From contig NZ_JADCDB010000003.1 in NCBI RefSeq assembly GCF_020252395.1, positions 1-64,000 on the forward strand: 64,000 nt of DNA, in the 5' to 3' direction. Below, one piece after another: positions 140-15,082 of the stretch (positions within the stretch are counted from its first letter, which is position 1; every line of letters begins with the position of its first letter). The stretch comes from Aestuariivirga sp. Lineage in GTDB: Bacteria; Pseudomonadota; Alphaproteobacteria; Rhizobiales; Aestuariivirgaceae. Position numbers and translations under genes: made by a program. Under the pieces are notes generated by a model, which did no database searches, was not told the DNA's origin, and saw only the letters and a list, made by a program, of their open reading frames with translations.

Positions 140-292
140 GTGCGCGTCGGCTGCCGTTTCGAACGGCTCGGCCCGGAGATCATCCTGGATCGTGGCCTAC
201 GCACGGTTGCCGCGCTCTTCCCTGTCGGCGCGGACGCGTCGGATGCGCTGCGTCAAGGGCTTATCCGCCGAGGGCAATGCGCCGCCGCCTGA
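140..292 (+). pseudogene. C-terminal remnant of a probable acyl-homoserine-lactone synthase (LuxI family)
   Basis: An open frame of about 50 codons runs from the edge of the IS630-like end to a TGA at 290-292. It reads VRVGCRFERLGPEIILDR and continues RGLRTVAALFPV. This resembles the last part of LuxI-family autoinducer synthases, where an R-x-G...RLGP segment is followed by a small-residue loop and a V-A-x-L-x-P-V strand. The catalytic N-terminal half is absent, presumably lost to the IS insertion, so it should be non-functional. A LuxR-type receptor lies at the far end of the same gene run. The assignment comes from a short stretch and could be wrong; a GNAT-like C-terminus is the main alternative. 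Confidence 0.45.
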
Positions 293-371: not shown

Positions 372-1661
372 ATGATGGCACAGGAACTTAAATGCCTAGC
401 ACTGATCGGCTGTGGCGACGAGCGCTATCGGTCGTACCTACTTGAGCAGATCAGCGAAGGCTATGACATCTGGCTGATCGATACGGCAGAGCCGACCTGG
501 CAACGCACCCGGCTGCGCGGGGCCACGCGAATCGAGGCATTCCGCCCCGACCTGATCGAGGCGGCGGTTGCCGATCTAATGCAGGACGGCGGCTTAGACG
601 GCATCGTCTGCTGGGATGAACGCTACGTTCTTGTGGCCGCAGACTGTGCGGCACTGTTCCGGCTGCCGACGCCGGGCGCGTTGGGAATTCGCGGCTGCCG
701 CGACAAAGCGCTGTGCCGCACGCGGCTCACTGAGGCGGGGTTACCGCAGCCCCGCTCCCGGCAGTGCTACGACGCGGAAGATGCCGCTAGCTTCGCCGAG
801 ACGGTCGGCTATTCCTGCGTAGTTAAACCGCGCGACATGGGAGGGAGCATCGGCGTTGCCCTAGTGACAGGCCCCGCAGACCTACGCCAGGCCTTCGGCA
901 GGGCTCAGGCCGCCAGTCGCAGCGGATCCGACCGCAGCCTGACCGGTGTCCTGGTCGAGGAGTTCATCGCCGAAGGCCCGGAGATCAGCATCGACGGCAT
1001 CTATTTCAGCGGCCGGTACACGCCGCTCTTCGTCGGGCGGAAATCGGTGGGCATGGCACCGTTCTTCGAGGAGATTGCGCATCTTGTCGACGCGGCAGAC
1101 CCGCTGCTGGACGATGCGGTGCTGCGCGACGTGCTTAACCGCGCACACGCCGCCATCTGCTTCGGCGACGGCATCACCCATACCGAGTTGAAACTGACCG
1201 CGAACGGTCCCGTAATCATAGAGATTAACGGGCGGCTGGGAGGCGACTTCATCCCCTGGCTGGCCACGCTGGCGATGGGGATGCGGCCCGGTCTTCTTGC
1301 CGGCCAGGTTGCCGCGGGCGACCCGGTCACCCTGCCGTCAAGGGGCGCAGGCCGCGGCTGTGCTGCCATCGCATTCCGATACCCCGACCGCAACCTCACC
1401 GTGGCCGAGGTCATGGCACCCGAGGCGCGGATCCTGGGTCTGGCGCAGGGAAGCGCCACTCGCCTTGCCCGACCTGGCGACATTGTCGGTCTGCCGCCGG
1501 AGCACCACCTCGGGCGTGTCGGTTACGCCATCGCGCATGGCCCTGATCCCGCCGACTGCGTGACCCTCGCCGCTAGTCTCGCGACCGAGTTCGACTGGCG
1601 TGCCGCGACCCCGTCCGGCACCGGTACCACGGTCGGTGCCCTTTCAACGAGCGAGATTTGA
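372..1661 (+). CDS. ATP-grasp ligase (first of three)
   Basis: ATP-grasp enzymes join a carboxylate, activated as acyl phosphate, to an amine or similar nucleophile. In this 429-residue protein an N-terminal pre-ATP domain (about 1-110) precedes the ATP-binding lysine segment VVKPRDMGGSIGV (150-162), VEEFIAEGPEISID (195-208) and the metal-binding ELKL...IEINGRLGGD (272-292). It resembles L-amino-acid ligases and carnosine-synthase-like enzymes. The start may be ATG 372 or ATG 375, the latter better spaced from AGAGGA. The next gene follows after 4 bases. The inferred role is an amide or hydrazide bond in the cluster product; the substrate is unknown. Confidence 0.85.
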   Translation: MMAQELKCLALIGCGDERYRSYLLEQISEGYDIWLIDTAEPTWQRTRLRGATRIEAFRPDLIEAAVADLMQDGGLDGIVCWDERYVLVAADCAALFRLPTPGALGIRGCRDKALCRTRLTEAGLPQPRSRQCYDAEDAASFAETVGYSCVVKPRDMGGSIGVALVTGPADLRQAFGRAQAASRSGSDRSLTGVLVEEFIAEGPEISIDGIYFSGRYTPLFVGRKSVGMAPFFEEIAHLVDAADPLLDDAVLRDVLNRAHAAICFGDGITHTELKLTANGPVIIEINGRLGGDFIPWLATLAMGMRPGLLAGQVAAGDPVTLPSRGAGRGCAAIAFRYPDRNLTVAEVMAPEARILGLAQGSATRLARPGDIVGLPPEHHLGRVGYAIAHGPDPADCVTLAASLATEFDWRAATPSGTGTTVGALSTSEI

Positions 1662-1665
1662 CATC

Positions 1666-3321
1666 ATGATCACGCATGATCTGAACTTTGACGTCATCAT
1701 GATCGGCGCCGGTCCGGGCAACCTCGCCTTGGCCGCCATGCTCGATGAAACCTCGCCGGCCATCGCGGCCCGCAGCGTAATGCTCGAAGCCTGCGAGACG
1801 ATCGCCTGGCAGCCCGGACTGATGGTCCCCGGCGCGCTCAGCCAGGTGAATTACGTCAAGGACCTCGCGACCCTTCGCGATCCCAAAAGCCGGTTCACCT
1901 TCCTCAACTACCTGCATTCAACAGGACAGATCGACGATTTCATCAACATGGGCAGCGCATTCCCGTTGCGCGAGGAGGTTTCGCGCTACCATGCGTGGGT
2001 CGCAGACCTGCTTACCAACGTGCGGCTAAAGCTCGGGCAGCGGGTGACGCAGGTGGCTCCGATCCGCGAAGGACACCGTATCACCGGATGGCGCGTCGAG
2101 ACCGAGGCCAGGCTTTCGCTGACAGCACGTCATGTTGTCATCGGAATCGGGCGAGAAGCCCGCATTCCGCAGGAGCTGATGGACCTTCCGGACGATCGCA
2201 TCATCCACTCCACCGCCTTCATGCAGCGTATCGGACGGTTTGCCCCCGAGGCAATCCGCTCCGTCGCCATCATCGGCAGCGCCCAGAGTGCCGCCGAGAT
2301 GACGCTGGAAATCGGACGACGTTTTCCCGACGCCAAGCGAACGATGATCATGCGCTCAATCGGGCTGATGGGCTACGAGACCAGCAAGTTCACCAACGAG
2401 TACTTCTATCCCGACTTCATCGACAGCTTCAATGCGCTGCCCGGGGAGGACCGCGCGCTGGTGCTCGAGCAGATGCACCGCGCCAACTACGCGGGTCTTG
2501 CGCCGCATACCGTCGAGGCGCTCTATGCACAGCGATATCAGCGGAAGCTCGACGGACGGGGTGACCTCGAAATCCGGCCGCTGACCTGGATCCGCCACGC
2601 CATGGTGGATGACGCAGCGGTGACAATGCGCCTGCATTCGAAGCTCGATGGCCCGAGCGAAGCTCGGTTTGATCTCGTGCTGCTTGGCACCGGTTTCGAC
2701 CCGCAGATGCCGCGACTGATCCTCGAGACTGCCCGCGCCGCGGGCGTCGACGAGGTCATCATCGATCGCTTCTACCGGCTCGAACTCGGGGCGCAGGGTT
2801 CTGAGTCCGCGATGTGCTTCGTCCTCGGTGTCAACGAAGGCACCCATGGAATCGCTGACTCCCTTCTCAGCGTTCAAAGTGTGCGGGCACAGGAGGTCGG
2901 CGCGCTGATCCAGCGGAATTCGCTGCGCCGCTGCGCCGCCGATCAGCGCGTCAAGCGCTTCGACCCGAAGATGCTGGTGCACGAAAACGGGCTGCGAGCT
3001 CAGCGTCTGCTGCCGTTCCCGCTGACCACTCCCTTCGAGAGCTCTTGGTGCATCTTGGCTCCGGGCAGCGCCTCCACCCCACATGCGCACCACGAATATG
3101 AGATCTTCGTTGCCCTCGAAGGCGAAGCCGTCATCGAGATGGATGGCGAGGAAGTGACCTTGACCCGCGGCGACACCGTCTACTTCGAGCCGGGCGCCCG
3201 CCACCGCGTCGTGAACCGCGGGACGACGGACTTCATCATGTACAGCATCTGGTGGGACGACGCCATGAGTCTTCGTCAGCTCGCCGCCTCGATGCTGCCC
3301 GAAAGGAATGTGGCGTCATGA
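1666..3321 (+). CDS. Lysine/ornithine N-hydroxylase fused to a C-terminal cupin domain
   Basis: Residues 1 to about 440 are an FAD- and NADPH-dependent amino-acid N-monooxygenase of the SidA/IucD/PvdA family: FAD motif GAGPGN (14-19), WQPGLM (48-53), NADPH-site IIGSAQSAAE (202-211), GTGFDP (341-346) and HGIADSLLS (394-402). Residues about 445-545 form a cupin with probable metal ligands H473, H475, E479 and H513. ATG 1666 was chosen because it starts just before the FAD motif and just after the previous stop; an upstream in-frame start at 1600 would overlap the ligase. In hydrazine-forming pathways such as Spb38/Spb40 the hydroxylase is separate and the cupin is fused to the MetRS-like protein, so this arrangement is unusual. 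Likely product: N6-hydroxylysine or N5-hydroxyornithine. The gene overlaps the next by ATGA. Confidence 0.88.
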   Translation: MITHDLNFDVIMIGAGPGNLALAAMLDETSPAIAARSVMLEACETIAWQPGLMVPGALSQVNYVKDLATLRDPKSRFTFLNYLHSTGQIDDFINMGSAFPLREEVSRYHAWVADLLTNVRLKLGQRVTQVAPIREGHRITGWRVETEARLSLTARHVVIGIGREARIPQELMDLPDDRIIHSTAFMQRIGRFAPEAIRSVAIIGSAQSAAEMTLEIGRRFPDAKRTMIMRSIGLMGYETSKFTNEYFYPDFIDSFNALPGEDRALVLEQMHRANYAGLAPHTVEALYAQRYQRKLDGRGDLEIRPLTWIRHAMVDDAAVTMRLHSKLDGPSEARFDLVLLGTGFDPQMPRLILETARAAGVDEVIIDRFYRLELGAQGSESAMCFVLGVNEGTHGIADSLLSVQSVRAQEVGALIQRNSLRRCAADQRVKRFDPKMLVHENGLRAQRLLPFPLTTPFESSWCILAPGSASTPHAHHEYEIFVALEGEAVIEMDGEEVTLTRGDTVYFEPGARHRVVNRGTTDFIMYSIWWDDAMSLRQLAASMLPERNVAS

Positions 3322-4850
3322 CCGTGCCCAACAACCGCCTGCTGATCATCGGCCCGCCCCCGACTCCGAACGGCGACCTGCACATCGGACACATAGCGGG
3401 TCCATACATGAGCGCCGACGTTCTGCGCCGATGGGTCCTGCTGCAAGGCGGCGAGGCCGAGTTCGTGACCGGCACCGACGACAGCCAGACCTTCACCGTC
3501 GCGTCGGCGCGCAAGCTCGGGATTGAGCCAGCGACGCTTGCGGCGCAATCAACCGCGGCCATCCGGCGCTCGCTCGACCAAGCGCTCATCCGGATCGACG
3601 GTTTCGCCCCCTTCGACGCGGGTTATGAGGCTGCGGTGCGCGCCTTCCTCGATCCGCTGCATGCTGCGGGCAAGCTGGTGAAGAAGACGCGGTTCCTGCC
3701 GTGGGACACGCAGGAGGCGTGTTTTGTCGTCGAGGGGCTGGTGGCGGGCGAATGTCCGCACTGCCTCGCCGAGTCGCGCGGCGGGCTCTGCGAAAGCTGC
3801 GGGCAGCCCGTCGCCTGCGAGACCCTGCGCAATCCGCATTCCGTACTGTCCGGCAATCGCGACCTGGAGTTCCACGAGACGGAAATCCTCGTTCTGGAAC
3901 TGGAGCCGCTGCGCGGGCGGATTGAAGCATACTACAACCCCGAACGCCTGGCCGCGCTTCGCCCCGGTGCCCGCCGCATCATCTCACAGGCCCTTGCGGG
4001 CCCGCTGCCGGATTTCCCGGTGACCTACCCGCTGGCCTGGGGAATTCCGGCGTGCTACGACGAAGTGCCTGGGCAGGTCTTCAACGCTTGGGCTGAAGGC
4101 ATGGCGGCGTCGATGTACTGCACGGCGGCGGCCCGCGACGGTGCCGTCCAGACCGGCTTGCAAGCTTGGCAGGACAGGCACACTGACCTTGTCTACTTCC
4201 TCGGGCTCGACAACGTATACTTTTGGGGTGTGACGCACTTGGCGATGCTGCTCGCGCACGACGGGCGCTTCATGCTGCCCGTCAACTACTATTCGAACCA
4301 CTTCTACGAGTTGGACGACGAAAAGATATCCACAAGCCGCGGCCATGTCGTCCTGATGGGCGACCTTCTGCAGGAATTCGGTGCATCGGCGGTGCGGTTC
4401 TTCCTTTGCTGGACCGCCCCAGAAGCGACCGAGCGGTCGTTCTCGCGCGACGCCTTCGTGCGGGTAACGGATCGCTGCCTCGTCGCGCCTTGGAACCGCA
4501 TCTTTATGGCCGTGCAGCCGGTGGAGATCACGCCGCAGGACCGGGTGGCTGCGGCGGCGGACATCGCGTTGATGCTGGCCGAGATGATTGGCCACATGTC
4601 GCTCGCATCCTTCTCGACGGCCGGCGCAGCACGCATGCTGGCTAAGCATCTCGGGCGGCTCGACCGGATGGCTGCGTCGCTGCCGCCAGGTGACGCTGGC
4701 CAGCTGGCGGCGCAGTTCCAGGCTCTCGCATGGCTGGCCGACCCGATCCTGAAGCAAGGGGATGTCACCACGACACGCGAGGAGTGGATGCCTCGGCCGC
4801 TCGCCCTATGGCTCGACCCTGAGACGCCCGGCCCCCGGGACGCCGCGTGA
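3318..4850 (+). CDS. Methionyl-tRNA-synthetase-like protein, candidate hydrazine (N-N bond) synthetase
   Basis: This 510-residue protein has a class I synthetase core: HIGH motif LHIGH (21-25), a zinc knuckle CPHC...CESC (146-161), GLDNVYFWG (296-304) and a KMSKS-like KISTS (336-340). The C-terminal third is degenerate relative to the anticodon-binding domain of housekeeping MetRS. Known relatives in N-N bond biosynthesis (Spb40, PyrN) activate an amino acid and couple it to an N-hydroxylated amine with help from a cupin domain. Here the cupin is on the upstream hydroxylase, so the two proteins would have to cooperate. The start overlaps the previous stop (ATGA). It is unlikely to be the cell's MetRS, given its context and divergence. 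The partner amino acid cannot be read from sequence. Confidence 0.82.
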   Translation: MTVPNNRLLIIGPPPTPNGDLHIGHIAGPYMSADVLRRWVLLQGGEAEFVTGTDDSQTFTVASARKLGIEPATLAAQSTAAIRRSLDQALIRIDGFAPFDAGYEAAVRAFLDPLHAAGKLVKKTRFLPWDTQEACFVVEGLVAGECPHCLAESRGGLCESCGQPVACETLRNPHSVLSGNRDLEFHETEILVLELEPLRGRIEAYYNPERLAALRPGARRIISQALAGPLPDFPVTYPLAWGIPACYDEVPGQVFNAWAEGMAASMYCTAAARDGAVQTGLQAWQDRHTDLVYFLGLDNVYFWGVTHLAMLLAHDGRFMLPVNYYSNHFYELDDEKISTSRGHVVLMGDLLQEFGASAVRFFLCWTAPEATERSFSRDAFVRVTDRCLVAPWNRIFMAVQPVEITPQDRVAAAADIALMLAEMIGHMSLASFSTAGAARMLAKHLGRLDRMAASLPPGDAGQLAAQFQALAWLADPILKQGDVTTTREEWMPRPLALWLDPETPGPRDAA

Positions 4851-5767
4851 TGGCAAGGATCGCTATCGTCGGCGGTGGTGTCCTCGGGCTGTTGGCGGCG
4901 TTCTGGGCGCTGCGCCAGGGCGACACCGTCGACCTCGTCGATCCCGGAGACGACGGTGCGATCTCTTGGAATGGCGCCCGAATCGTTCGCGATCCGCGCA
5001 TCGGCGCAGGCGACAACACGCGGCCCTGGAGCGCGGTGCTCAAGCTTCTGGGGCACGGCGCGGTCGATGCGCGTCCTGTCGTGCATCTGGAAGATGCGCA
5101 CCAGGTCGCCGAACCCCTGGCCTTCTGTCTCGATACCGCGCGGGTGCGCGTGCTCCTCCACGCCAGGCTGGACGCCGAGCCGCATTTCACCTGGCATCGC
5201 ACCAAAGTCATGCGGATCGAGGCTGAAGGTCGCGCCCTGCGGCTTGCGGACGGGCAGCTGATGCGCCCCGATGCCGCGATCGTGGCGGCGGGACAGGGCA
5301 GTGCCGACCTTGCTGGAGATCCAGGGGCCATCCAGATGCGTTGGCAGGTTTGCGCCGAGCTCCCGCGCGTTCCCCCCGCGGTCCGTACGCCGTTCGTTCA
5401 GCATAAGGCCGGGCATGGACTCTGGGGGACGCCCGCGGTAGGCGCCCAACCCGCGAAGATCAGCGCCTCGGACCTTTGTTTCGACAGTCGCGCGGAAGCG
5501 GAGGCCTTCGTTGCCTCGCCGGTCGGGCGCGGTGCGTTCCTCGTTCGCGCACGGCAGTTGCCGGAGGCGGTCGCAGTCTGCCCGGACAGCATAACCGAAG
5601 GCGACGTTTGCTGGCGCATCGACAGCTATGCCGCCAGCCTTGCCCCCCGGATCCGGCAAATCGGGCGGACCACCCTGCACCTTGCCTGCGACGGCGGTCT
5701 GTTCAAACGCGCGCCAATGGTGGCGGAGGCGCTGCTCGAAACCCTGAAACCGGGAGTGATGATGTGA
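4850..5767 (+). CDS. Small FAD-dependent amine oxidase (D-amino-acid/glycine-oxidase fold), Spb39-like
   Basis: This 305-residue flavoprotein opens directly with a Rossmann FAD motif (GGGVLG, 8-13), followed by an acidic strand end LVDPGD. The body matches the DAO/glycine oxidase superfamily in length and layout, with a C-terminal FAD-contact segment around LACDGGLF. In known hydrazine pathways an oxidase of this class (Spb39) cleaves the lysine-derived hydrazine to release a hydrazino acid such as hydrazinoacetate. Its position directly after the MetRS-like gene, with a TGATG junction, supports the same role. A GTG at 4847 is an alternative start. The assignment to the Spb39 step is inference. 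Confidence 0.78.
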   Translation: MARIAIVGGGVLGLLAAFWALRQGDTVDLVDPGDDGAISWNGARIVRDPRIGAGDNTRPWSAVLKLLGHGAVDARPVVHLEDAHQVAEPLAFCLDTARVRVLLHARLDAEPHFTWHRTKVMRIEAEGRALRLADGQLMRPDAAIVAAGQGSADLAGDPGAIQMRWQVCAELPRVPPAVRTPFVQHKAGHGLWGTPAVGAQPAKISASDLCFDSRAEAEAFVASPVGRGAFLVRARQLPEAVAVCPDSITEGDVCWRIDSYAASLAPRIRQIGRTTLHLACDGGLFKRAPMVAEALLETLKPGVMM

Positions 5768-7029
5768 CCCGACGCATCCTTTTCATCGAAGCCGTGCAGT
5801 ACGGCACCTACTACGCCGACCGCTATGCGCATATCTGCAAGCTTGGCTACGACGTGCACGTGCTCTACGGCACTGGCACGCTAGAGGGGCGCGACCGTGC
5901 GCATCACCGGGTCGCGGGCGAGCGCAACATCGACACACTGATCGCCGCCGCCGCCGGCTGGCACCGCGAGACTCCCTTCGACGGCATCACCACGCTGTGC
6001 GAGCCTTCCGTTCTGGCCACGGCAGAGATCGCCGCGGCGTTGGGGCTGTCCTATCCCTCGCTCGGCGCGGCGCTCTTGTCGCGAGACAAGTTCGAAATGC
6101 GCTGCGCGCATCGCGGGCTGGGCGTGCCGCACCCTCACTTCATCGGGTTGCGCGAGATTACCGACCTCGCCGCCTGGCCCGAGAGTGCCTACCCCGCCAT
6201 CGTAAAGCCCGCGATGGGATCGGCAAGCTCTTTCGTGTTCCGGGCCGATACGCCCGAAGAACTGCGGCGCTATGCGCAGCTCGTGCTGGAGAACGTCAGC
6301 ACCATGGCCGTGGCAAAGCTGGAGGCAGAGATGCCACTGCGCGATGCGCCGAGCGTGGTGGTGGAGCGCTTCCTCGACGGCTCCGAGCACCTGGTCGAGG
6401 GTTATGTCTACAACGGCTGCTTCGTGTTGGGCTCAATTGTGGATCGAATCACCCTCGAAGGCGTGACTTTCGATGACGATGTGCATCACGCGCCCTCACG
6501 GCTGTCACTCGAAGATCAGCACCGTGTGGGCGAGGTGATCGGCTTGGCCTGCACAGCACAGAAGATCGACATGGTCACCGTCCATGCGGAAGTGCGCTTC
6601 CACGAGGTCCGCCCCTACATCGTCGAGATCGGCATCCGCCCGGGTGGCGGCGGGCTGAACCTCATGGCCGGGGAATCCTTCGGCTACGACCCGCTGGACA
6701 TGGTGGCGAGGCTGGCGCTGGGGCAGATTCCGGGGCCGCGCCCGGCGGGCCCGACCGGAGTACACACTGCCGCTGCCTGCCTTATGGGTTACGAAGGGCA
6801 GATCTCCGGCATCGAAGGCGCGGAAGCGCTGCGCGACGATCCGTCGGTTTTCTTCTTTAAGCTTGTGGCTGCGGTCGGCACCGAGCTGCGGCGCCCGCCG
6901 CGCGGCAATTCCATCGTCGGGTTCCTGGGCGTCCGCGGCACCAGCTACGCCGACGTGGTTGAGACGCTGAACCGCAAGAGTGCCAAACTTCGGGTTATCG
7001 TCGAGGAGGTGGACCATGTCGGAGGCTAG
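5764..7029 (+). CDS. ATP-grasp ligase (second of three)
   Basis: This 421-residue ATP-grasp protein has the lysine segment IVKPAMGSASSFVF (146-159), VVVERFLDGSEHLVEG (198-213) and the metal-binding HAEVRF...VEIGIRPGGG (274-296). It is only distantly similar to its two paralogues here, which suggests different substrates rather than a recent duplication. GTG 5764 was chosen as start because it gives a four-base GTGA overlap with the previous stop and removes about 96 residues of low-complexity upstream translation. The first residues, TRRILFIEAVQYG, look like the first strand of a pre-ATP-grasp domain. Its inferred role is condensation of the hydrazino unit with an amino acid or carboxylic acid. 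Confidence 0.82.
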   Translation: MTRRILFIEAVQYGTYYADRYAHICKLGYDVHVLYGTGTLEGRDRAHHRVAGERNIDTLIAAAAGWHRETPFDGITTLCEPSVLATAEIAAALGLSYPSLGAALLSRDKFEMRCAHRGLGVPHPHFIGLREITDLAAWPESAYPAIVKPAMGSASSFVFRADTPEELRRYAQLVLENVSTMAVAKLEAEMPLRDAPSVVVERFLDGSEHLVEGYVYNGCFVLGSIVDRITLEGVTFDDDVHHAPSRLSLEDQHRVGEVIGLACTAQKIDMVTVHAEVRFHEVRPYIVEIGIRPGGGGLNLMAGESFGYDPLDMVARLALGQIPGPRPAGPTGVHTAAACLMGYEGQISGIEGAEALRDDPSVFFFKLVAAVGTELRRPPRGNSIVGFLGVRGTSYADVVETLNRKSAKLRVIVEEVDHVGG

Positions 7030-8293
7030 GACGATCGCCGTCGGCTACACGCAGGCCGGCCTCGCGTCGCTGAACGCGCTGCGCCCCGCCGGGTCGATCA
7101 TCGTGATCGAAGAGCCCGCCGTCGTGGCGCGGCGCGGGATCGAAGTTGCGGTCGCAGCCCTTCCGGGTGTCAACCGGGTAATCGCCGCCTGCCACACCGA
7201 TCCGGCCGCGCTCGACGCGATCCACTCGGCGCTCGCCCGCGAGGTCGTGGCGAGTGTCGTGCCCCTGAACGAATACGGCACGCCCGCGGCTGCGTATCTT
7301 TCCGAATTCTTCGGCGTGCCCGGTGCCGGGTACGAGGCGGCCCGCACGCTGCGCGACAAGCACCTGCTGCGCAGGGTTTCCGAAGCGGGCGGGATCCGCA
7401 ACCCGCGCTCGAAACCGGTCGCCTCGCTGGCCGAGGCCCGGGCCTTCGCCGCCGACCTCGGCCGCCCGGTGATCCTCAAGCCCCGCAACCGGCAGGCTTC
7501 CGTTGGCACGGTGATCGTGCGCAATCCGGCGGACCTTGTGGCGGCCTGGGACATCTGCCAGGCCCGCGACGAGGGCGTGTTGGAGCCGCAGACGGCGCTG
7601 CCGCCACTGACCCTTGTCGAGGAGTTCGTCGAGGGACGGGAATTCAGTGTCGAGGCGCTGATCCGCGACGGCAACCTGCTGTTCGCCAACGTCACCGCAA
7701 AATCGCTCTACCCCGGCGACCGCCCGATCGAGCGCATGCACCTCGTGCCCGCCGACCTGGCACCTAACGACTATGCCCGCCTGGTGGCCGATACCGCTCG
7801 TCTGGTGACGGTGACCGGCTTCGGCACCGGCATCGTGCATTGCGAATGGCTCATGAACCGGGGCGTGCCGCATCTCGTGGAATGCGCGGGCAGATTCGCC
7901 GGCGACGGGATCATCGACTTGATCTGTCGTGCCTGGGGTTTCGACATTGTGGCCGCCTACCACGCGCTCATGCGCGGCGAAGACACGGGTATACTGCCCG
8001 AGCGGCCCCGCAAGGCTGCGCTGGTGCGCTTTCTCGACGCCCCCGAGGGCCGAGTCAGACAGGTCATCCGCGACGAGGTCGCGCTAGCCGCACCGGGCAT
8101 AAAGCAGGTCCACATCTCCGTCAAGCCGGGCGATCTCGTAGCACCGCTGGTCTCGTCCTGGCAGCGTCCCGGATCGGTGACGATCGAGGCAGACGATGCC
8201 GCTGCGGCCCGCCGCCTCGCCGAGGTGGCGGCGGCCGCCATCACCATTGCCTGCGAACCCGAACAGGAGCTTGCCGATGTCGCAACGCATTGA
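7016..8293 (+). CDS. ATP-grasp ligase (third of three)
   Basis: This 425-residue ATP-grasp enzyme has ILKPRNRQASVGT (153-165), VEEFVEGREFSVE (201-213) and the catalytic segment HCEWLM...LVECAGRFAGD (275-297), in which the usual E-x-N-x-R is E-C-A-G-R. The sequence resembles BacD/carnosine-synthase-like dipeptide ligases. ATG 7016 follows a strong ribosome binding site (GAGGAGG at 7003-7009) and overlaps the previous gene by 14 bases. Three ligases in a row suggest that several amide or hydrazide bonds are formed without an NRPS. Substrates are not predictable from the motifs. Confidence 0.83.
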   Translation: MSEARTIAVGYTQAGLASLNALRPAGSIIVIEEPAVVARRGIEVAVAALPGVNRVIAACHTDPAALDAIHSALAREVVASVVPLNEYGTPAAAYLSEFFGVPGAGYEAARTLRDKHLLRRVSEAGGIRNPRSKPVASLAEARAFAADLGRPVILKPRNRQASVGTVIVRNPADLVAAWDICQARDEGVLEPQTALPPLTLVEEFVEGREFSVEALIRDGNLLFANVTAKSLYPGDRPIERMHLVPADLAPNDYARLVADTARLVTVTGFGTGIVHCEWLMNRGVPHLVECAGRFAGDGIIDLICRAWGFDIVAAYHALMRGEDTGILPERPRKAALVRFLDAPEGRVRQVIRDEVALAAPGIKQVHISVKPGDLVAPLVSSWQRPGSVTIEADDAAAARRLAEVAAAAITIACEPEQELADVATH

Positions 8294-8618
8294 CTACGAC
8301 GGTCGGCGATTCACGCGTAGCGACGTGCTCGAGGCCCCGACAGCGGTCTATCGCCAGCGTGGAGATGTACTTCACGGAAGCTTCCAAGGGGCCGACATCC
8401 GCTATGGCTGCCTCTGCGGCGTCGTGCGGGAAGATGGCACCCTGCAGTTCTCCTACTCCATGGTCGATGCGGCGAACCAGGTGATTTCCGGACAGTGTAC
8501 CAGCACCGCCGAGGTTGGGCCGGACAACCTCGTGCACCTGCGCGAGGAATGGCAACGTTTCTCACCGGTCGCATGCAGCGGCGTCTCCTACCTAAGGGAG
8601 ATCCCCGATGGCACGTGA
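8277..8618 (+). CDS. Small protein of the family often labelled N-acetylglutamate synthase; function unknown
   Basis: This 113-residue protein overlaps the previous gene by 17 bases and the next by 11. It reads as alternating beta strands with motifs YDGRRF (6-11), GDVLHGSFQGADI and HLREEWQRFS. I associate this pattern with a family of roughly 100-residue proteins commonly mislabelled N-acetylglutamate synthase; it has no acetyltransferase fold signature. There is no signal peptide or membrane segment. In the cluster it could be a small binding, carrier or tailoring protein, but no function should be assigned. An upstream in-frame start at 8196 is rejected because it would lie inside the ligase gene. 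Confidence 0.65.
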   Translation: MSQRIDYDGRRFTRSDVLEAPTAVYRQRGDVLHGSFQGADIRYGCLCGVVREDGTLQFSYSMVDAANQVISGQCTSTAEVGPDNLVHLREEWQRFSPVACSGVSYLREIPDGT

Positions 8619-9933
8619 CCTTCTTCAGCTAGAGCGCCTTTCGCCCTACAACGAGGCGGTCCGCCTGCCCCGCATCGCTTCGGTCGTGACGCCGCGCAAC
8701 ACCTCTGAACTCGTGGCGGCGATCGCCGAGGCGCGACAGCATTGCCGGACCCTGAGCATCTGCAGCACCGGCCACGACTTCGAGGGGCGCTCGCTCTCGG
8801 GCGAGGTCATACTCAACCTGAATGCGTTCACCGGCACGTTCTACAACCCTGTAACCATGCGTCTCACCGTCGGTGGTGCGACCCGCGTGGCCGCAATCAA
8901 CGACACCCTGCGTCCGCACGACCGCGCGATCTCAACCGGAACCAACCAGGACGTCGGCATCGCCGGGCTTGCGATGGGTGGCGGGGCGGCCTACACCTCG
9001 CGCAGCCGCGGCCTTACCTGCGATGCCCTCGTCGAGGTCGAGCTCGTCACCTGGGGCGGCGAGGTGCTTAGGCTGAATGACGCCAGCGAACCGGCGCTCA
9101 TGCGACTTGTGCGGGGTGCGGGCGGCGGCTGGCTCGGGGCGGTCACGACTCTGATCTTCGAGACCTACGAGACCAGTCCCGTCACGGCCTTCGGCGGCAG
9201 CTGGTCCTGGCAGCCGGGCCTCCTGGGTAGGCTGGAACAGGCGCTGGTTTCGGCGCCGCGTGCGCTTTCGATGCGCGTTGGGACGAACATCACTGGCGCG
9301 GACTGCACCCTGCGGATAACCGTTTCAGGCCAAGTGATGGGCGGCGACGAAGCCCTGCTAGCACGGCACCTCGCGGGTATCCCGCAGCCCGCCGACTGGC
9401 ACCAGCGGACGATGCCCTACGCCGAGGCGATGGCCGGGGCAAGGCACGTGACTTCGGGCGGGGCCTTCCGGATCAAGAGCCGCTTCGCCCCCCGGCCGGT
9501 GGGTACGGACACGCTGGAGGCCATGGCCGCACACGTGGGGAACTGGCCGCCGACACGCAACCCTGACGGTGCAGGCTTCGGGCTCTTCGCCTGGGGCGGG
9601 GCGGTGGCCGACACGCCGCGCGCGCGCTCCTGCGCCGCCGGACGCGATGCACACTACCTCGCCTCGTTCGACACCTCATGGACGGCGCAGGAAAGTGCGG
9701 CCGACATCGCCCGGCAGGATCGCTGGCTGCGCGACCTCGACGAGCTGGCCGCGCCGCACATGGCGGCGGGCGGCTACATCAACTTTCCCGATTCGGACGA
9801 CGACGCGTTCGCCAACCGCCACCTCTCCGGTTTTGCCGACGAGCTGGTCGCGGCCCGGCTCCGCTGCGACCCGGACGGCCTCTGCCGCCAAGTCTCGCTC
9901 TATCATTCTCCAGCGCAAGTCACGCCCTCATGA
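8608..9933 (+). CDS. Berberine-bridge-like FAD-linked oxidase, probably with bicovalent flavin
   Basis: The 441-residue protein has a PCMH-type FAD-binding domain with STGHDFEGRSLSG, where H56 matches the histidyl-FAD site. RGLTCDALVEVEL has C138 at the position of the cysteinyl-FAD site of bicovalent BBE flavoproteins. A central GGGAAYTS loop and a C-terminal BBE segment with GGYINFPDSDDD follow. Such enzymes use oxygen for two-electron oxidations. Here it is a good candidate for oxidising a hydrazine to a hydrazone or azo function, or for desaturating the product. It overlaps both neighbours. The cytoplasmic context without a Tat signal indicates an intracellular biosynthetic enzyme. Confidence 0.82.
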   Translation: MARDLLQLERLSPYNEAVRLPRIASVVTPRNTSELVAAIAEARQHCRTLSICSTGHDFEGRSLSGEVILNLNAFTGTFYNPVTMRLTVGGATRVAAINDTLRPHDRAISTGTNQDVGIAGLAMGGGAAYTSRSRGLTCDALVEVELVTWGGEVLRLNDASEPALMRLVRGAGGGWLGAVTTLIFETYETSPVTAFGGSWSWQPGLLGRLEQALVSAPRALSMRVGTNITGADCTLRITVSGQVMGGDEALLARHLAGIPQPADWHQRTMPYAEAMAGARHVTSGGAFRIKSRFAPRPVGTDTLEAMAAHVGNWPPTRNPDGAGFGLFAWGGAVADTPRARSCAAGRDAHYLASFDTSWTAQESAADIARQDRWLRDLDELAAPHMAAGGYINFPDSDDDAFANRHLSGFADELVAARLRCDPDGLCRQVSLYHSPAQVTPS

Positions 9934-11201
9934 GCATGCACCCTCACGACCAGAATCCGACCGTCCTGCAGGTGCTGAAGGGCACGTCGCTGACCGTGCG
10001 CTTCCTCCTTGCAGGGGCCTTCATCAACCAGCTAGGGTACTTTATCCAGGCCTATATCATCGTGTTCATGGTGGCACGCGGCTTCGATACGCTGCAGGCG
10101 GGCTGGGGCCTCGCCACTTTCTCCGCCGGCTCGATCCTCGGCACGCTTCTGGCGGCGCCCCTCGCGGCGCGGATTGGCGACCGGAGCACAATCATGCTCG
10201 CCTCGCTTTGCACCGCGCTCTTCGTCGCGATGATCCCAATTGGCGTCCGCCCGGACCTGCCGGTTTTTGCCTGGGCCGGGTCCATCGCCCTGGCTGGCGT
10301 CTTCGCCCAGATGTACCGCCCCGCGGCGGCTAACATCCTCAGCCATCACTTCCGCCAGGACCTTCAGGTCATGGGCTTCTCGATGCTGCGCATTGCGCTG
10401 AACCTGGGCGGTGCAGTCGGGCCGGTCGTGGCGACCGCACTCGCGGCTTGGAACTGGGATCTCGTCTTCGGCTTCAATGCCTTTACGAGCCTGCTTTTCG
10501 CTGGCATGGCGGCGGCCTTCATCCGCGACCCGCGTCCCGCCACCGGGGATGCCCGGGACGACGTCGGCACGCCCTCCGCGACCTCGGCCTGGTCGCATCT
10601 GATGCGAGACGGGCGGTTCATTGCCTTCCTGGGCGCCATGTTCCTGAGTTCGATCGTCTTCGCCCAGTTCTATGCCACCGTGCCGATTGGGATTGAGGCG
10701 CAGGGGATGCCCCTCAAGGTCTACTCGACGCTGCTAAGCACTTACGCGGTGGTTCTCATCCTCTGCGAGCTCAAGATCAGCTCGATCGTGCGCCGCTATC
10801 CCGTCTGGAAACCGGCTGCGCTGGGGACCACTGTGCTCTGCCTTGGCGTTGCCTCCTTCGGTCTGACCCTGCATAGCGCGGCCGGACAAATGGCCAGCAC
10901 CGTGCTGCTGGTCGGTGGGCTGATAATCAGCGGGCCGACGATGTTTGCCTATCCCGCGCGCTTCCCGCTCGCGGTGCGGCGCCTCTACATCAGCGCGAAC
11001 CAGGCCGCCTTCTCTGCCGGACTGGCCATCGGACCCATTGTCGGGATCGCGATCTTCAACAGCCATAGCGGGCTCATCTGGCTCATCTGTTTGGCGCTCG
11101 CACTGATCTCGGGCATGCTCTGCGTCGTCGGGATGCGCGCCCCCGCCGACACGCTCCCCGCAGCTCCGGACGCGGCCGGGGCATCCGGTAGCGGAGGCTG
11201 A
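9930..11201 (+). CDS. MFS transporter, probable product exporter
   Basis: About 423 residues with the hydrophobic periodicity of a 12-helix major facilitator protein, including the loop after helix 2 (APLAARIGDRST) and long C-terminal helices. Start ATG 9930 overlaps the stop of the oxidase (ATGA). The frame also stays open upstream to 9678, but that part is a shadow of the oxidase gene. It sits inside the biosynthetic run, the usual place for an efflux pump that exports the metabolite and protects the producer. Direction and substrate are inferred from context only. Confidence 0.82.
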   Translation: MSMHPHDQNPTVLQVLKGTSLTVRFLLAGAFINQLGYFIQAYIIVFMVARGFDTLQAGWGLATFSAGSILGTLLAAPLAARIGDRSTIMLASLCTALFVAMIPIGVRPDLPVFAWAGSIALAGVFAQMYRPAAANILSHHFRQDLQVMGFSMLRIALNLGGAVGPVVATALAAWNWDLVFGFNAFTSLLFAGMAAAFIRDPRPATGDARDDVGTPSATSAWSHLMRDGRFIAFLGAMFLSSIVFAQFYATVPIGIEAQGMPLKVYSTLLSTYAVVLILCELKISSIVRRYPVWKPAALGTTVLCLGVASFGLTLHSAAGQMASTVLLVGGLIISGPTMFAYPARFPLAVRRLYISANQAAFSAGLAIGPIVGIAIFNSHSGLIWLICLALALISGMLCVVGMRAPADTLPAAPDAAGASGSGG

Positions 11202-11202
11202 C

Positions 11203-12855
11203 ATGCCCCAGAATACCATAGACTCCATCGGTGCCGCCGTGCTCGACCTGCGACAGCGCATGGACCCGCTCGACGACGCCTTCCGCGTCCTCCCTCGCCC
11301 GGCGCATGTCCTTCCCGCGATCTCCGCCGGGTGGGAAGCCGACCTGCGCTCAGGCCTCGACGCGCAGGAGGCGGCGCTGGCATCGTTGCCTTCGACCCGT
11401 CAGGATGACCCGCTGGCCCGCGCCATTGTGGCCCGGCAGATGGAGGAGGCCCGGCTGAGGCTCGACACCGCCTTCTGGGCCATTTTCCTCACCGGCTACG
11501 ACCACTCGCCGCTGGGTCGGGTCAGCGGCCTCTTTCCCACCCTGCCAGTGGATTGCCCGGCCGCGCGGGCTTGGTTCCTCGAGGCACTCGCCTCGGTCGG
11601 GGGGTATCTCGACGGTTGTCTGGATGCCTCCGCGCGGGCCGCGAGCCGGGGCCGGACACCGCTCGACCGCAGCCTGAAGCAAGCGCTGCGGGACTGGTCC
11701 GCGCTGGAGCGGAACCAAGGTCGCGACCTGCTTCCCGCTGAGGTCACACCGGACTTCGCGGCCGAAGCCTCGGCGCTCTTCGAGCGCCACGTCAGCCCGG
11801 CCGTCGCACGATACGTCGGGGGCCTCGAACACACTTGGGCAACGACCCGTGGCAATGATCGGCCGGGCCTTTGCCATGTCCCTGGCGGGCGCGCCGACTA
11901 CGAGCGTCTGGTGGCCTTGCACACCGACCGTGCGGCTGCGGCCGATGAAATCCATGCATACGGTCTCGCCGAGGTGGCGCGCTTGCGCGACGCGCTGGCG
12001 ACCTTGTGCGAGATGGACGCACAAGCCTCGGTCGAGGAGATGCTGGCTCCCCGGCCGAACGAAGCCGTCAACGCGACCCCTGCGGATGTGGCGGCCGAGA
12101 TGTGCACCTTTCTGGACGCCGCGCGGCGCAGCTTTGCCGACCGGTTCGACTTCGACCGGATCGGCCCGATGCGCAGCGAGGCGATTCCCGCCCATCTCTC
12201 CGCCGCTTCCCCGCCCGCCTACTATATTCCGGGCAACGACGCTCGGCCCGGCACGCTTATGGTCAACCACGCGGCGCTTGTCGGGCAACCCTGCGGGGCA
12301 GTGCAGGCGATGGTGTTCCACGAGGCGATACCCGGCCACCACCTGCAATTCGAGATCGCGCGCTCCGTTGCGAGTCCCGACTACCGCCGAGCCTCGTGGT
12401 TCAACTCCTTCATTGAGGGTTGGGGCCTCTACTGCGAGGAACTCGCCGCGGAAGAAGGCCTTTACGTAACCCGGGCGGCGCTGCGCGGCAAGATCGGGAT
12501 GGAGCTGCTGCGGGCGGCACGGCTAATAGTCGATACCGGCCTGCATGCGCGAGGTTGGTCCTTCGAGAAGGCGCTGGCTTGTTTCATGGACGTCACCGGC
12601 TTCGCGACCGCTCGGGCGGAGCGCGAGATCGCGCGGTACATCGAGTACCCTGCGCAGGCGCTCTCCTATGCCATGGGCAAGGCGTGGCTGCTGCGGCTGC
12701 GCGCCGACGCGCACAAGGCGCTAGGCCGCGACTTCGACCTGCGTCGTTTCCACGGCGAGGTGCTGCGGTACGGTGCCGTCCCGCTCGATGCAATGGCGGA
12801 CCAAGTCACCGCCAGCCTGCTGCTCGATCAAGCGCGTCGTTCGACCGTGCAATGA
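11203..12855 (+). CDS. DUF885-family metallopeptidase-like protein
   Basis: The 550-residue protein carries the DUF885 hallmark HEAIPGHHLQ (373-382), a zinc-site motif with two histidines and a glutamate, followed by EGWGLYCEE, the second conserved block of this family. Members are mostly uncharacterised and look like zinc metallopeptidases. No signal peptide is visible, so it should be cytoplasmic. It lies one base after the MFS stop and overlaps the next gene by ATGA. It may trim a peptide-like intermediate, release the active product, or act as a non-hydrolytic tailoring enzyme. These options cannot be separated from sequence. Confidence 0.78.
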   Translation: MPQNTIDSIGAAVLDLRQRMDPLDDAFRVLPRPAHVLPAISAGWEADLRSGLDAQEAALASLPSTRQDDPLARAIVARQMEEARLRLDTAFWAIFLTGYDHSPLGRVSGLFPTLPVDCPAARAWFLEALASVGGYLDGCLDASARAASRGRTPLDRSLKQALRDWSALERNQGRDLLPAEVTPDFAAEASALFERHVSPAVARYVGGLEHTWATTRGNDRPGLCHVPGGRADYERLVALHTDRAAAADEIHAYGLAEVARLRDALATLCEMDAQASVEEMLAPRPNEAVNATPADVAAEMCTFLDAARRSFADRFDFDRIGPMRSEAIPAHLSAASPPAYYIPGNDARPGTLMVNHAALVGQPCGAVQAMVFHEAIPGHHLQFEIARSVASPDYRRASWFNSFIEGWGLYCEELAAEEGLYVTRAALRGKIGMELLRAARLIVDTGLHARGWSFEKALACFMDVTGFATARAEREIARYIEYPAQALSYAMGKAWLLRLRADAHKALGRDFDLRRFHGEVLRYGAVPLDAMADQVTASLLLDQARRSTVQ

Positions 12856-13415: not shown

Positions 13416-13422
13416 GAAAATC

Positions 13423-13439
13423 ATATCGGTGCCCGATAT
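13423..13439. repeat. Inverted repeat between YbaK-like and PEP-mutase-like genes
   Basis: The sequence ATATCGG TGC CCGATAT gives 7-base perfect arms around 3 bases, in the only long gap (88 bases) within the + strand gene run. It could be an operator, a processing hairpin or chance. No T-run follows, so it is not a standard terminator. Confidence 0.35.
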
Positions 13440-13503
13440 CAGGCGCTCCCGCCTTGCGGGATCGCCTACACAACCGAAACCCTCGCCGAATATGGAGCGG
13501 ACC

Positions 13504-14265
13504 ATGAGCCAGATCGAAAAGGCGGACGTCTTCAGAGCCTTGCATGTCAGGGGCCGGCCCGTGATCTTGTACAATATCTGGGACGCCGGTGGTGCCCGCG
13601 CGGTGGCCCAGGCAGACGCGAAGGCCATCGCGACCGGGTCGATGTCCGTCGCCGCTGCGCAGGGATACTCGGACGGCGAGGCGATCCCGCTCGACTTCGT
13701 CCTGTCGCTCGTGACGCGGATCGTGGCGGCGGTCGACCTGCCCGTCACCGTCGATTTCGAAGGCGCCTACGCCGCCGATCCCGACACCATCCGGGCCAAT
13801 GTCGCTCGGCTGATCCGGACGGGGGCCATCGGCCTGAACTTCGAGGATCAGGTGGTCGGCGGCAGCGGCCTCTATCCGGTGGAGATGCAGGCGGCGCGGA
13901 TCGCGGCGGTCCGGGCAGCGGCGAAGGACAGCGGCGTGCCGATGTTCATCAATGCCCGGACGGACCTGTTCCTGCAGGCGGGGGACGGGGGCGATCACGC
14001 GACGCTGGTGACTGCTGCCATCTCGCGCGGGCGACGCTACGCCGAGGCAGGCGCGGACTGTTTCTTCGTTCCGCTGCTCGGCGCGCCCGAATTGGTGGCC
14101 GAGGTCGTCGCTGGGGTCGACCTGCCGGTGAACGTGATGGTGCTGGACACCGGGGCAGATCTCGCGCCGCTGGCCGCTGCCGGCGTGGCCCGCGTTAGCT
14201 TCGGGCCTGCCCCCTATCTGGCTAGAAACCGCGCATTGACAGAGGCCGCACGGAAGTTTATTTGA
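13504..14265 (+). CDS. Isocitrate lyase/PEP mutase superfamily enzyme
   Basis: 253 residues with the PEP mutase/isocitrate lyase TIM-barrel layout: GSMSVAAAQGYSDGE, VTVDFEGAYA, GAIGLNFEDQ and NARTDLF. The superfamily forms or breaks C-C or C-P bonds next to a 2-oxo acid. The isocitrate lyase cysteine loop (KKCGH) is not visible, and neither is a convincing PEP-mutase EDK-NS signature, so it belongs to the broad group of uncharacterised members, some of which decarboxylate oxaloacetate or cleave methylisocitrate. The ribosome binding site GGAGCGG precedes ATG 13504. It is probably part of the cluster and may supply a precursor such as a 2-oxo or glyoxylate-type acid. Confidence 0.75.
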   Translation: MSQIEKADVFRALHVRGRPVILYNIWDAGGARAVAQADAKAIATGSMSVAAAQGYSDGEAIPLDFVLSLVTRIVAAVDLPVTVDFEGAYAADPDTIRANVARLIRTGAIGLNFEDQVVGGSGLYPVEMQAARIAAVRAAAKDSGVPMFINARTDLFLQAGDGGDHATLVTAAISRGRRYAEAGADCFFVPLLGAPELVAEVVAGVDLPVNVMVLDTGADLAPLAAAGVARVSFGPAPYLARNRALTEAARKFI

Positions 14266-14317
14266 TCTCACTTTGCGTCTTCGAAATCATTGGCCGACCA
14301 TTGAGCAGGATTTTGTG

Positions 14318-15082
14318 ATGCAGGAAACGCTTTCTGAGAGGTTCGAAACTTTACTCCTTGAGAAGCGCGCTACGGATCTGGTGGAAACCGCGACGAGCAT
14401 CCTCGCGCACCTCGGGATCGACAAGATCTGCTATCTGCGTCCGCCGGACGCCGGAAGCGCCAACGCGGCAGAGATCCTGACGAACTATTCGGCCGACTGG
14501 AAAGACCGCTACATTGAGCAGGATTACTTCACCATCGATCCAGTGATCGGCCTGGGCCTTTCGCACAAGCGCACGCTAAACTGGCTTGATCTCGATCTTT
14601 CGGACCGGAAGCTCGTGCGGTTCTTCGGCGAGGCCCGGGAGTACGGGATTCACTCCTGTGGCCTCTCGGTGCATATCTCCGACTGCGAGAATCGCAGGGC
14701 GCTGTTCTCAATGAACTCCGCCCTGCCTCGCCGCGACTGGGAGGCGCTGCTGACGGAACGCCGCGCCGATCTGGAGCATCTCGCCTATCTCTTCCACATC
14801 CACCACGTCCAGTACCACGCCCATGGGCCGCTAGCTTTCGAAGAGTTGTCGAAGCGTGAGTTGCAGGTGCTCAGCTGGGCCGCGGCAGGAAAGTCCAGCT
14901 GGGAGACCTCGCAGATCCTTGACCTTTCTGAGAAGACGGTCGACGGCTACTTGCGGGCTTGCTACCGGAAGCTGCACTCCAGCAACAAGACCCATGCTGT
15001 GGCTATGGCCATGCATGGCAGGATGCTCGACCAATTATTCGTAAGGCAGTTCATCCTGCCTGCGAAGGCCGGTCCTGCGTGA
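14318..15082 (+). CDS. LuxR-type transcriptional regulator with autoinducer-binding domain
   Basis: 254 residues. The N-terminal domain keeps the ligand-binding set of acyl-homoserine-lactone receptors: W61, Y65, D74-P75 and W89, each four positions after the equivalent residue in TraR. A C-terminal LuxR helix-turn-helix (about 175-238) contains LSKRELQVLSWAAAGKSSWE and LSEKTVDGYLR. The start was set at ATG 14318 behind GCAGGA; the frame continues upstream to a TTG at 14273. It probably controls the gene run in response to an AHL-like signal. No intact luxI is in the window, only a possible remnant at its left edge. The 3' end overlaps the convergent ada by 32 bases. Confidence 0.85.
   Translation: MQETLSERFETLLLEKRATDLVETATSILAHLGIDKICYLRPPDAGSANAAEILTNYSADWKDRYIEQDYFTIDPVIGLGLSHKRTLNWLDLDLSDRKLVRFFGEAREYGIHSCGLSVHISDCENRRALFSMNSALPRRDWEALLTERRADLEHLAYLFHIHHVQYHAHGPLAFEELSKRELQVLSWAAAGKSSWETSQILDLSEKTVDGYLRACYRKLHSSNKTHAVAMAMHGRMLDQLFVRQFILPAKAGPA

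Follow-up and report, generated by a model that had tools for sequence, protein, structure and literature searches.

A probable hydrazine-forming gene cassette with the cupin fused to the N-hydroxylase in Aestuariivirga sp.

We have analysed a 64,000-nucleotide stretch of DNA from Aestuariivirga sp. (the window), in which a gene for a fused N-hydroxylase (NMO) and cupin is followed by genes for a MetRS-like protein and a DAO-type FAD oxidoreductase (Table 1). This locus raises the question of whether these proteins form an N-N bond, and of how the cupin came to be part of the hydroxylase. Considering the evidence described here, the genes probably constitute a cupin/MetRS-type hydrazine synthetase cassette, in which a fusion of adjacent genes tethers the N-hydroxylase to the N-N-forming cupin.

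Table 1. Features of the cassette and the surrounding cluster (positions in the window)
Position	Strand	Feature	Size, domains and matches
140..289	+	Probable AHL synthase (luxI) C-terminal tail, truncated by insertion-sequence end (126-140)	
375..1661	+	AG1, ATP-grasp ligase	Pfam ATP-grasp_4, E 6.6e-15
1666..3321	+	NMO-cupin fusion	551 aa; N-hydroxylase ~1-425, junction, cupin ~438-551
3318..4850	+	MetRS-like amino acid-activating enzyme	510 aa; Pfam tRNA-synt_1g, E 1.3e-58
4847..5767	+	Small DAO-type FAD oxidoreductase	306 aa; Pfam DAO, 27.5 bits
5764..7029	+	AG2, ATP-grasp ligase with LAL_C2	Pfam
7016..8293	+	AG3, ATP-grasp ligase with LAL_C2	Pfam
8277..8618	+	Small protein	No Pfam match; conserved in clusters, 43-50%
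8608..9933	+	FAD_binding_4 oxidoreductase	Pfam; 54% to D. ficus cluster
9930..11201	+	MFS transporter	Pfam; 50% to D. ficus cluster
11203..12855	+	DUF885 protein	Pfam, E 2.7e-97; 33-35% in 5 Streptomyces clusters
13504..14265	+	Isocitrate lyase/PEP mutase-type protein	Pfam PEP_mutase, E 1.1e-76; 38-45% in 7 of 28 stretches
14318..15082	+	LuxR-type regulator, autoinducer-binding domain	Pfam

The three cassette genes are coupled by 4-nt overlaps (ATGA, GTGA). In the product of the first gene, Pfam places Lys_Orn_oxgnase at residues 8-345 (E 3.6e-78) and Cupin_2 at residues 461-529 (E 9.5e-19), and the cupin ligands H473, H475, E479 and H513 lie in its C-terminal domain, just as the preliminary description of this DNA had claimed. 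Considering the Pfam E-values and the identical gene order elsewhere, the three-gene cassette is not a chance assembly. The cupin matches RHS1 (PDB 5UQP, E 1e-9), a proven N-N-forming cupin; the lack of similarity to Spb40-type cupins that would have refuted that description is not borne out. Its ligands follow the pattern His/Asp-x-His-x3-Glu-x33-His, with a spacing of 2, 4 and 34 identical to that of the residues printed in PMC8664883 for PyrN (50, 52, 56 and 90) and RHS1 (63, 65, 69 and 103). In 37 cupin rows, which represent 36 distinct loci (L083 copies L010), the columns of H475, E479 and H513 are invariant and that of H473 is His in 35. The cupin tree does not fix the place of the window inside the cassette clade.

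The MetRS-like protein showed no cupin domain by Pfam and alignment. The HIGH, KISTS and zinc-knuckle motifs attributed to it are intact: H22, G24 and H25, K336, S338, T339 and S340, and the cysteines 146, 149, 158 and 161 are invariant among eight aligned cassette proteins. In the MetRS tree (L004 and L105 left out), it belongs to a cassette clade of 22 rows (SH-aLRT 99); the other MetRS rows, 29 in all, are grouped on the same side of a branch (92), apart from that clade. Accordingly, an ordinary MetRS duplicate, which would be at odds with the preliminary description, is ruled out; by its sequence, the protein belongs with MetRS paralogs that are linked to cupins. The other MetRS-like match of the genome (L002) sits apart on a long branch and is probably its ordinary MetRS. 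In the NMO tree (without a characterised ornithine enzyme), these 22 rows again form a clade that includes the NMO of the window (support 100). The third protein scores just below the Pfam DAO cut-off of 27.9 bits and is 47-80 aa shorter than its counterparts. It aligns (29-30%), including an N-terminal GGG and a C-terminal motif, with 373-aa FAD proteins that occupy the same position in six Streptomyces clusters, and is a candidate for a DAO-fold counterpart of the Spb39-type FAD oxidase, which releases a hydrazino acid. Domains, motifs and overlaps agree with three coupled genes carrying the parts of an N-N bond machinery, whose identity is assigned by homology.

Among 38 cassettes, the cupin stands alone in 32, is fused to MetRS in five and is fused to the NMO only in the window. 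This count treats eight loci as copies, six of them after a sequence check and two (L001 and L011) because they are the window itself; it includes L119 and L120, which were added manually, and omits L113/L096, in which NMO and MetRS occur but a cupin was not found, and L105, a MetRS fragment. The usual gene order is NMO-cupin-MetRS; NMO-cupin-MetRS-FAD is annotated in other clusters, and one more shows the first three genes before its stretch ends. The nearest relatives (Streptomyces, Deinococcus, Pantoea and Klebsiella) encode the cupin separately, in a gene flanked by those for NMO and MetRS. In Pantoea ananatis, only one stop and 15 nt separate the NMO gene from the cupin gene downstream, and both share a reading frame. 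Accordingly, fusion of neighbouring genes is the simpler account. The cupin had been described as moved from the MetRS-like protein, in an independently arranged version of the machine. Both proposals were given up: relatives keep a separate cupin in the same order, which argues against derivation from a Spb40-type cupin-MetRS protein, and the genes of the three proteins are in the common order and the proteins belong to one cassette clade, which argues against independent invention. On sequence grounds, the NMO-cupin is best read as a variant of the cupin/MetRS hydrazine synthetase, a known system with a novel domain fusion.

Within the phylum of the window, the MetRS-like query (E 1e-45) matched only its own genome among 398, and among 346 genomes of the phylum of G783 (E 1e-50) only G783 itself matched. 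The fusion-protein query matched 30 of the 398 genomes at E 1e-40. Own genome apart, none of these matches shows an in-frame cupin; they end at query residue 374-432, or at 459-486 through stop codons (G596, G464 and G549).

The single occurrence among 38 cassettes, together with the few changes that would fuse the P. ananatis genes, favours the view that the fused gene reflects a mistake in sequencing or assembly, or else a stop codon lost very recently in this strain, and that the functional cassette is of the ordinary kind with separate genes. We consider this unlikely. In the assembled sequence, the fused reading frame is continuous (1666-3318 without a stop codon). Besides the stop, the usual cupin start is also absent: of the in-frame start codons near the junction, GTG 2881 (within the NMO), ATG 2971 and GTG 2977, visual inspection shows none preceded by a suitably placed Shine-Dalgarno sequence. 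The 27-codon junction has a coding-like GC3 of 0.926, next to 0.776 in the NMO part and 0.807 in the cupin part. The window row is on long branches in all three trees (NMO, cupin and MetRS), and hence the fusion need not be recent.

In terms of substrate, the best PDB match of the NMO is the ornithine hydroxylase PvdA (3s5w, E 5e-56), and the lysine hydroxylase MbtG is nearly as good (E 2e-50). Its residues K65, N244 and S402 align with K107, N293 and S469 of SidA, which we take to be ornithine-binding residues. The NMO of Rhodococcus jostii RHA1, a lysine user according to PMC8664883, instead has 6xbb, 5o8p and 7us3 as its best PDB matches. The ornithine/lysine split is not clean, because MbtG scores near PvdA and PvdA is the second-best match of a Mesorhizobium cassette NMO (L101) from the other branch. 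Overall, ornithine appears more likely than lysine as the substrate in the window. The closeness to siderophore-type ornithine hydroxylases and the presence of an MFS gene would also suit synthesis of a hydroxamate or N-acylated component of a siderophore instead of N-N bond formation, with cupin and MetRS as accessories to the NMO and ligases, and a siderophore role was proposed for some MtRS-paralog loci by Aravind et al. 2010 (PMC2922099). However, we regard this as very unlikely, considering that an acyltransferase or iron-uptake gene is absent among the 12 assigned genes (375-15082), that the MetRS and cupin motifs are intact, and that PyrN and RHS1 form hydrazine in vitro according to PMC8664883.

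Gene order, fusion, motifs and phylogeny are direct observations, and from homology we infer the following reactions, substrates and product for the hydrazine-forming cassette. The NMO domain would hydroxylate the side-chain nitrogen of a diamino acid. The MetRS-like protein would adenylate a second amino acid and load it onto the hydroxylamine oxygen instead of a tRNA, giving an unstable ester. The cupin domain, with Zn at its four ligands, would rearrange this ester to form the N-N bond, and the DAO-type enzyme would cleave one C-N bond oxidatively to free a hydrazino acid. At least one of the three ATP-grasp ligases would incorporate the hydrazino acid into a small peptide for export by the MFS pump. 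The tether would hold the first and third steps in one protein, and the MetRS-like protein, encoded by the next overlapping gene, would be expected to dock between them. To our knowledge, no enzyme of this cluster or its nearest clade has been assayed.

As described in PMC8664883, the substrate of the cupins of PyrN and RHS1 is an O-aminoacyl ester that the MetRS domain has formed. The hydroxylamine therefore has to reach MetRS before the cupin, and the direct hand-off to the cupin that had been proposed conflicts with this chemistry. In all, the preliminary interpretation is supported as regards the machinery and the cupin as a domain of the hydroxylase, and is not supported as regards the move, the independent arrangement and the hand-off. 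Although SznF unites an N-hydroxylating domain with an N-N-forming cupin, as reviewed, it is highly improbable that the fused cupin performs an SznF-like rearrangement of the hydroxylamine not preceded by MetRS, since it belongs to the RHS1/PyrN type and conserves the E479 position, and the MetRS partner is kept with intact motifs. The ester passed from MetRS to cupin in PyrN has a half-life below 10 min (PMC8664883); being unstable, it makes the way in which the parts are held together relevant to yield and to the engineering of N-N biocatalysts. The tether may have arisen neutrally, as a side effect of the fusion. As a natural NMO-cupin fusion, the protein is a new compact scaffold with which the importance of channelling could be tested.

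The surrounding cluster is probably peptide-making. AG2 is the most widely shared ligase (40-46% in 16 of 28 stretches), and AG1 is found at 42-43% in five Streptomyces loci (L005-L008 and L010) and at 50% in Deinococcus ficus. From its family role, we take the DUF885 protein to be a possible peptidase. The PEP mutase-type protein was rejected as a phosphonate signal, considering that its active-site stretch, compared by eye with known motifs, does not look like that of a PEP mutase. The LuxR-type regulator has no match in the 28 stretches. The luxI-like tail has neither a Pfam nor a PDB match; it gave weak tblastn matches (E 0.08-0.4) in eight plasmid records, of which seven are annotated as AHL synthase (50% over 38 aa) and one is unannotated, and the adjoining insertion-sequence end occurs at 15 places. 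Pyridazomycin, an ornithine-derived N-N product, was rejected for lack of a link, its hydroxylase being listed as unknown in a review, and a term search of the main text of two Pantoea antibiotic papers (PMC11350110 and PMC7744662) gave no match. Near-full counterparts of the cluster occur in Streptomyces and Deinococcus and a smaller one in Pantoea. Tentatively, and with considerable doubt, we suggest that an apparently uncharacterised, widely transferred cluster family (Streptomyces, Deinococcus, Pantoea, Klebsiella and this bacterium) might make ornithine-derived hydrazine peptides with ATP-grasp ligases; here, the polypeptide uniting hydroxylation and rearrangement and the coupled MetRS-like protein might form a complex that channels the unstable ester. 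Control might perhaps be exerted through quorum sensing by the flanking luxR and luxI, the latter now broken by an insertion sequence. The family with three ATP-grasp ligases common to Streptomyces and Deinococcus is a target for hydrazine-containing peptides.

Among known systems, the di-domain synthetases PyrN (pyrazomycin) and Spb40/Tri28 share MetRS-like activation, Zn-cupin rearrangement and an adjoining NMO gene, as described in PMC8664883, but carry the cupin N-terminally on the MetRS domain, where the 510-aa protein of the window has none. Stand-alone cupins in such systems are already published. In the RHS1 system of R. jostii RHA1 (5UQP; L097), the cupin is likewise separate from the MetRS-like protein but forms a protein of its own; the best PDB matches of the NMO in that system are 6xbb, a lysine and a putrescine hydroxylase rather than PvdA, and its MetRS is only 31% identical to that of the window. 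The loci of MtRS paralog, cupin and lysine N6-monooxygenase described by Aravind et al. 2010 (PMC2922099) have the same three-gene set, with the cupin typically 5' to MtRS; that account gives cupins fused to MtRS or stand-alone and does not report a monooxygenase fusion, whereas in the window the Lys/Orn N-hydroxylase accompanies the MetRS-like gene as a fusion with the cupin. Fusion of an N-hydroxylating to an N-N-forming domain is also seen in NMO-piperazate synthase chimeras (Hu et al., via PMC11705231) and SznF, but the former use a heme piperazate synthase and the latter a heme-oxygenase-like diiron domain and an Fe cupin, with no MetRS partner mentioned in these accounts; Pfam and NCBIfam scans of the window proteins gave no heme piperazate synthase domain (PzbAB type). 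The clusters of Streptomyces flaveolus and others (L005-L008 and L010; L009 is cut by its contig ends) and of D. ficus pDFI1 (L014) share NMO, cupin, MetRS, FAD enzyme, three ATP-grasp ligases, FAD_binding_4, MFS and ICL-type proteins with the window. In these Streptomyces (L005-L010) and D. ficus clusters, however, the cupin has its own gene and the gene strands are rearranged, and D. ficus carries an M32 carboxypeptidase in place of the DUF885 protein of the others.

The genome carrying the window comprises 3.49 Mb in 46 contigs, and ten tightly spaced plus-strand genes with several short overlaps occupy positions 375-12855. The three cassette genes lie within this run.

Cassette genes in the ten-gene run, with the databases used for domain assignment
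Feature	Position	Strand	Order in run	Assignment
NMO-cupin	1666-3321	+	2nd of ten	Pfam, NCBIfam
MetRS-like	3318-4850	+	3rd of ten	Pfam, NCBIfam
DAO-type	4847-5767	+	4th of ten	Pfam, NCBIfam

The NMO-cupin gene is a single 551-aa frame in which Pfam assigns residues 8-345 to the Lys/Orn N-hydroxylase (NMO) and 461-529 to the cupin, and the preliminary description was right that the cupin is a domain of the hydroxylase. In Streptomyces L005 and L008, Deinococcus ficus, two Pantoea and Klebsiella variicola, the NMO ends at about the start of the window's junction, and a separate cupin gene begins 14 to 55 bases past it. In P. ananatis the two genes share a reading frame with 15 nt between them, which may be why they came back as one tblastn piece. 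The window junction has no stop codon between NMO and cupin, and where the cupin gene usually begins, the aligned stretch is without a start codon. The first in-frame ATG after it (2971) lacks a well-placed Shine-Dalgarno sequence as judged by eye, and the junction GC3 is 0.926 (27 codons). Accordingly, this is, as assembled, a true in-frame fusion. The idea that the cupin had moved here from the MetRS-like protein finds no support, the cupin being a gene of its own after the NMO in the relatives compared.

We classified 38 distinct loci, each counted if the fetched stretch held both a MetRS-like protein and a cupin. The cupin is separate in 32, fused to MetRS in five (L017, L099, L100, L101 and L103) and fused to the NMO only in the window, a frequency of 1/38 that applies to the loci of a non-exhaustive sample. 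The sources included one genome-contig scan (6 loci) and selected plasmid matches (14 fetched of 80 listed, the best 40 of 1984 and the best 40 of 92 records); L119 and L120 were added by hand, and no NMO was found in the stretch of L094. Genome surveys supplied further loci: within the order, 3 of 175 genomes matched, counting the own genome; among S. flaveolus and its congeners, 18 of 246 did so at E 1e-60; and within the class, 60 of 385 at E 1e-20. Among 30 loci fetched from the class survey, a cupin was found only in the own locus and L017 (G285). A search with the fusion protein at E 1e-20 across 41 relatives, a set that contains the own genome, gave a match in that genome alone.

In the MetRS tree, one branch (SH-aLRT 92) parts the 38 cassette rows (L083 is a copy of L010) from 29 other MetRS that we labelled ordinary, 67 rows in all; R. 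phaseoli L102, on a long branch, joins just outside the ordinary rows. The window falls inside a 22-row clade (SH-aLRT 99) whose other distinct members have a separate cupin, except L096, in which none was found, and it groups with the same 22 rows in the NMO tree (66 rows; 100). The cassette NMOs are not one group: R. jostii, B. arboris, S. hirsutus L103 and the rhizobial rows form a distant clade. The R. jostii NMO matches PDB entries 6xbb, 5o8p (lysine) and 7us3 (putrescine); the Mesorhizobium cassette NMO matches 6xbb, then PvdA. The cupin tree is poorly resolved around the window. The best PDB matches of the window cupin are 4rd7 (E 1e-31), plu4264 (E 1e-25) and RHS1 (5UQP, E 1e-9), the last a cupin demonstrated in PMC8664883 to form an N-N bond. 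RHS1 has E in our alignment at the position of D63 published there, which we take as a one-residue aligner shift.

According to PMC8664883, the MetRS-like domain makes an ATP-dependent, tRNA-free O-aminoacyl ester on a hydroxylated diamine, and the zinc cupin then rearranges it to a hydrazine; the domains can also function in trans, and stand-alone pairs occur in nature. Motifs for ester formation and rearrangement are present in the window proteins. A direct hand-off of hydroxylamine from NMO to cupin, as had been proposed, is not supported and runs counter to this step order, because the cupin consumes the ester made by the MetRS-like domain. The tether would hold the ester-consuming cupin beside the hydroxylamine-making site, with MetRS acting between the two.

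The closest PDB match of the window NMO, as of the S. flaveolus NMO, is the ornithine hydroxylase PvdA (3s5w). SidA K107, N293 and S469, residues with a role in ornithine binding, are kept as K65, N244 and S402. Ornithine is thus the favoured substrate by sequence comparison, and no more than favoured because the lysine enzyme MbtG is a close second for both NMOs. For the related Por9/Por11 system of Pseudomonas orientalis, the review PMC11705231 gives another substrate by compound number only; we read this as ornithine or a compound closely derived from it.

Thirteen window proteins or domains were compared with 28 stretches by tblastn. The ATP-grasp ligase AG2 has relatives at 40-46% identity in 16 of them, and AG1, AG2, AG3, FAD_binding_4, MFS and the ICL-type protein co-occur in six (Streptomyces L005-L008 and L010, and D. 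ficus). DUF885 is present in these five Streptomyces clusters; D. ficus instead has an annotated M32 carboxypeptidase. Two Pantoea stretches keep AG2 as the sole ligase of the three and carry, by annotation, MFS, substrate-binding protein and GNAT genes. The K. variicola record (L013) stops just past MetRS, so its stretch covers no downstream genes. This shared neighbour-gene pattern suggests that the hydrazine unit would be coupled into a small peptide. The DAO query had no match in 23 of the 28 stretches; an FAD protein nonetheless occupies the DAO position in all nine clusters checked.

The window's DAO-type protein has 306 aa against 353-386 aa in nine related clusters; it lacks several internal stretches and keeps the N-terminal GGG motif and a C-terminal motif. 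An ICL/PEP mutase-type gene (13504-14265) is found again in 7 of the 28 cluster stretches, and the gene list of the azaserine cluster contains an isocitrate lyase as well (PMC10445470). The Streptomyces-group locus L113 (G983) has NMO, MetRS-like and two ATP-grasp genes, and tblastn found no cupin within 19 kb. In L119 (5423-8252; G1456, same order), two hydroxylase genes in tandem stand beside the MetRS-like gene and a separate cupin. On a K. variicola KV1 plasmid (L105, 9001-9957), residues 137-453 of the MetRS-like query match a stretch for which no gene is listed. This partial match lies between two transposase genes of the IS6 family and may be what is left of a decayed cassette.

Contig C23, whose bases 1-64000 are the window, starts at an insertion-sequence end (126-140). 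The 15-mer of this end has 15 sites in the genome; counted at contig starts, seven lie 126-127 bases from the start, including C20 and C23, and seven copies are minus-strand. In C20 (L125 121-606), an AHL synthase is truncated by the same end (Pfam 5-148 of 183), and window positions 140-289 show weak likeness to an AHL synthase tail. C20 and C23 are probably neighbours; this adjacency would probably put a broken luxI just upstream of the cluster, with luxR (14318-15082) downstream. Megablast of 20000-44000 against plasmids returned 661 records, mostly alphaproteobacterial (Rhizobium 360, Sinorhizobium 93), with 75.7-78.5% identity in the ten listed, which agrees with the preliminary description's placement of the source among the alphaproteobacteria.

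No NMO-cupin fusion appeared in the open-access literature searched, in the portions available; most subscription papers lay outside this scope, and Matsuda and co-workers were covered via citations only. The available part of PMC13274452 contributes nothing on domain arrangement. The cluster family is apparently uncharacterised. Stand-alone cupins and cupin-MetRS fusions are already known (PMC8664883, PMC2922099, PMC11705231), DobE is a MetRS/cupin fusion (PMC13061610), and gain of the AzsN carrier domain via fusion of neighbouring genes was proposed in the same family (PMC10445470). Beside these systems, the NMO-cupin protein is a well-supported new domain arrangement of known N-N-forming machinery.
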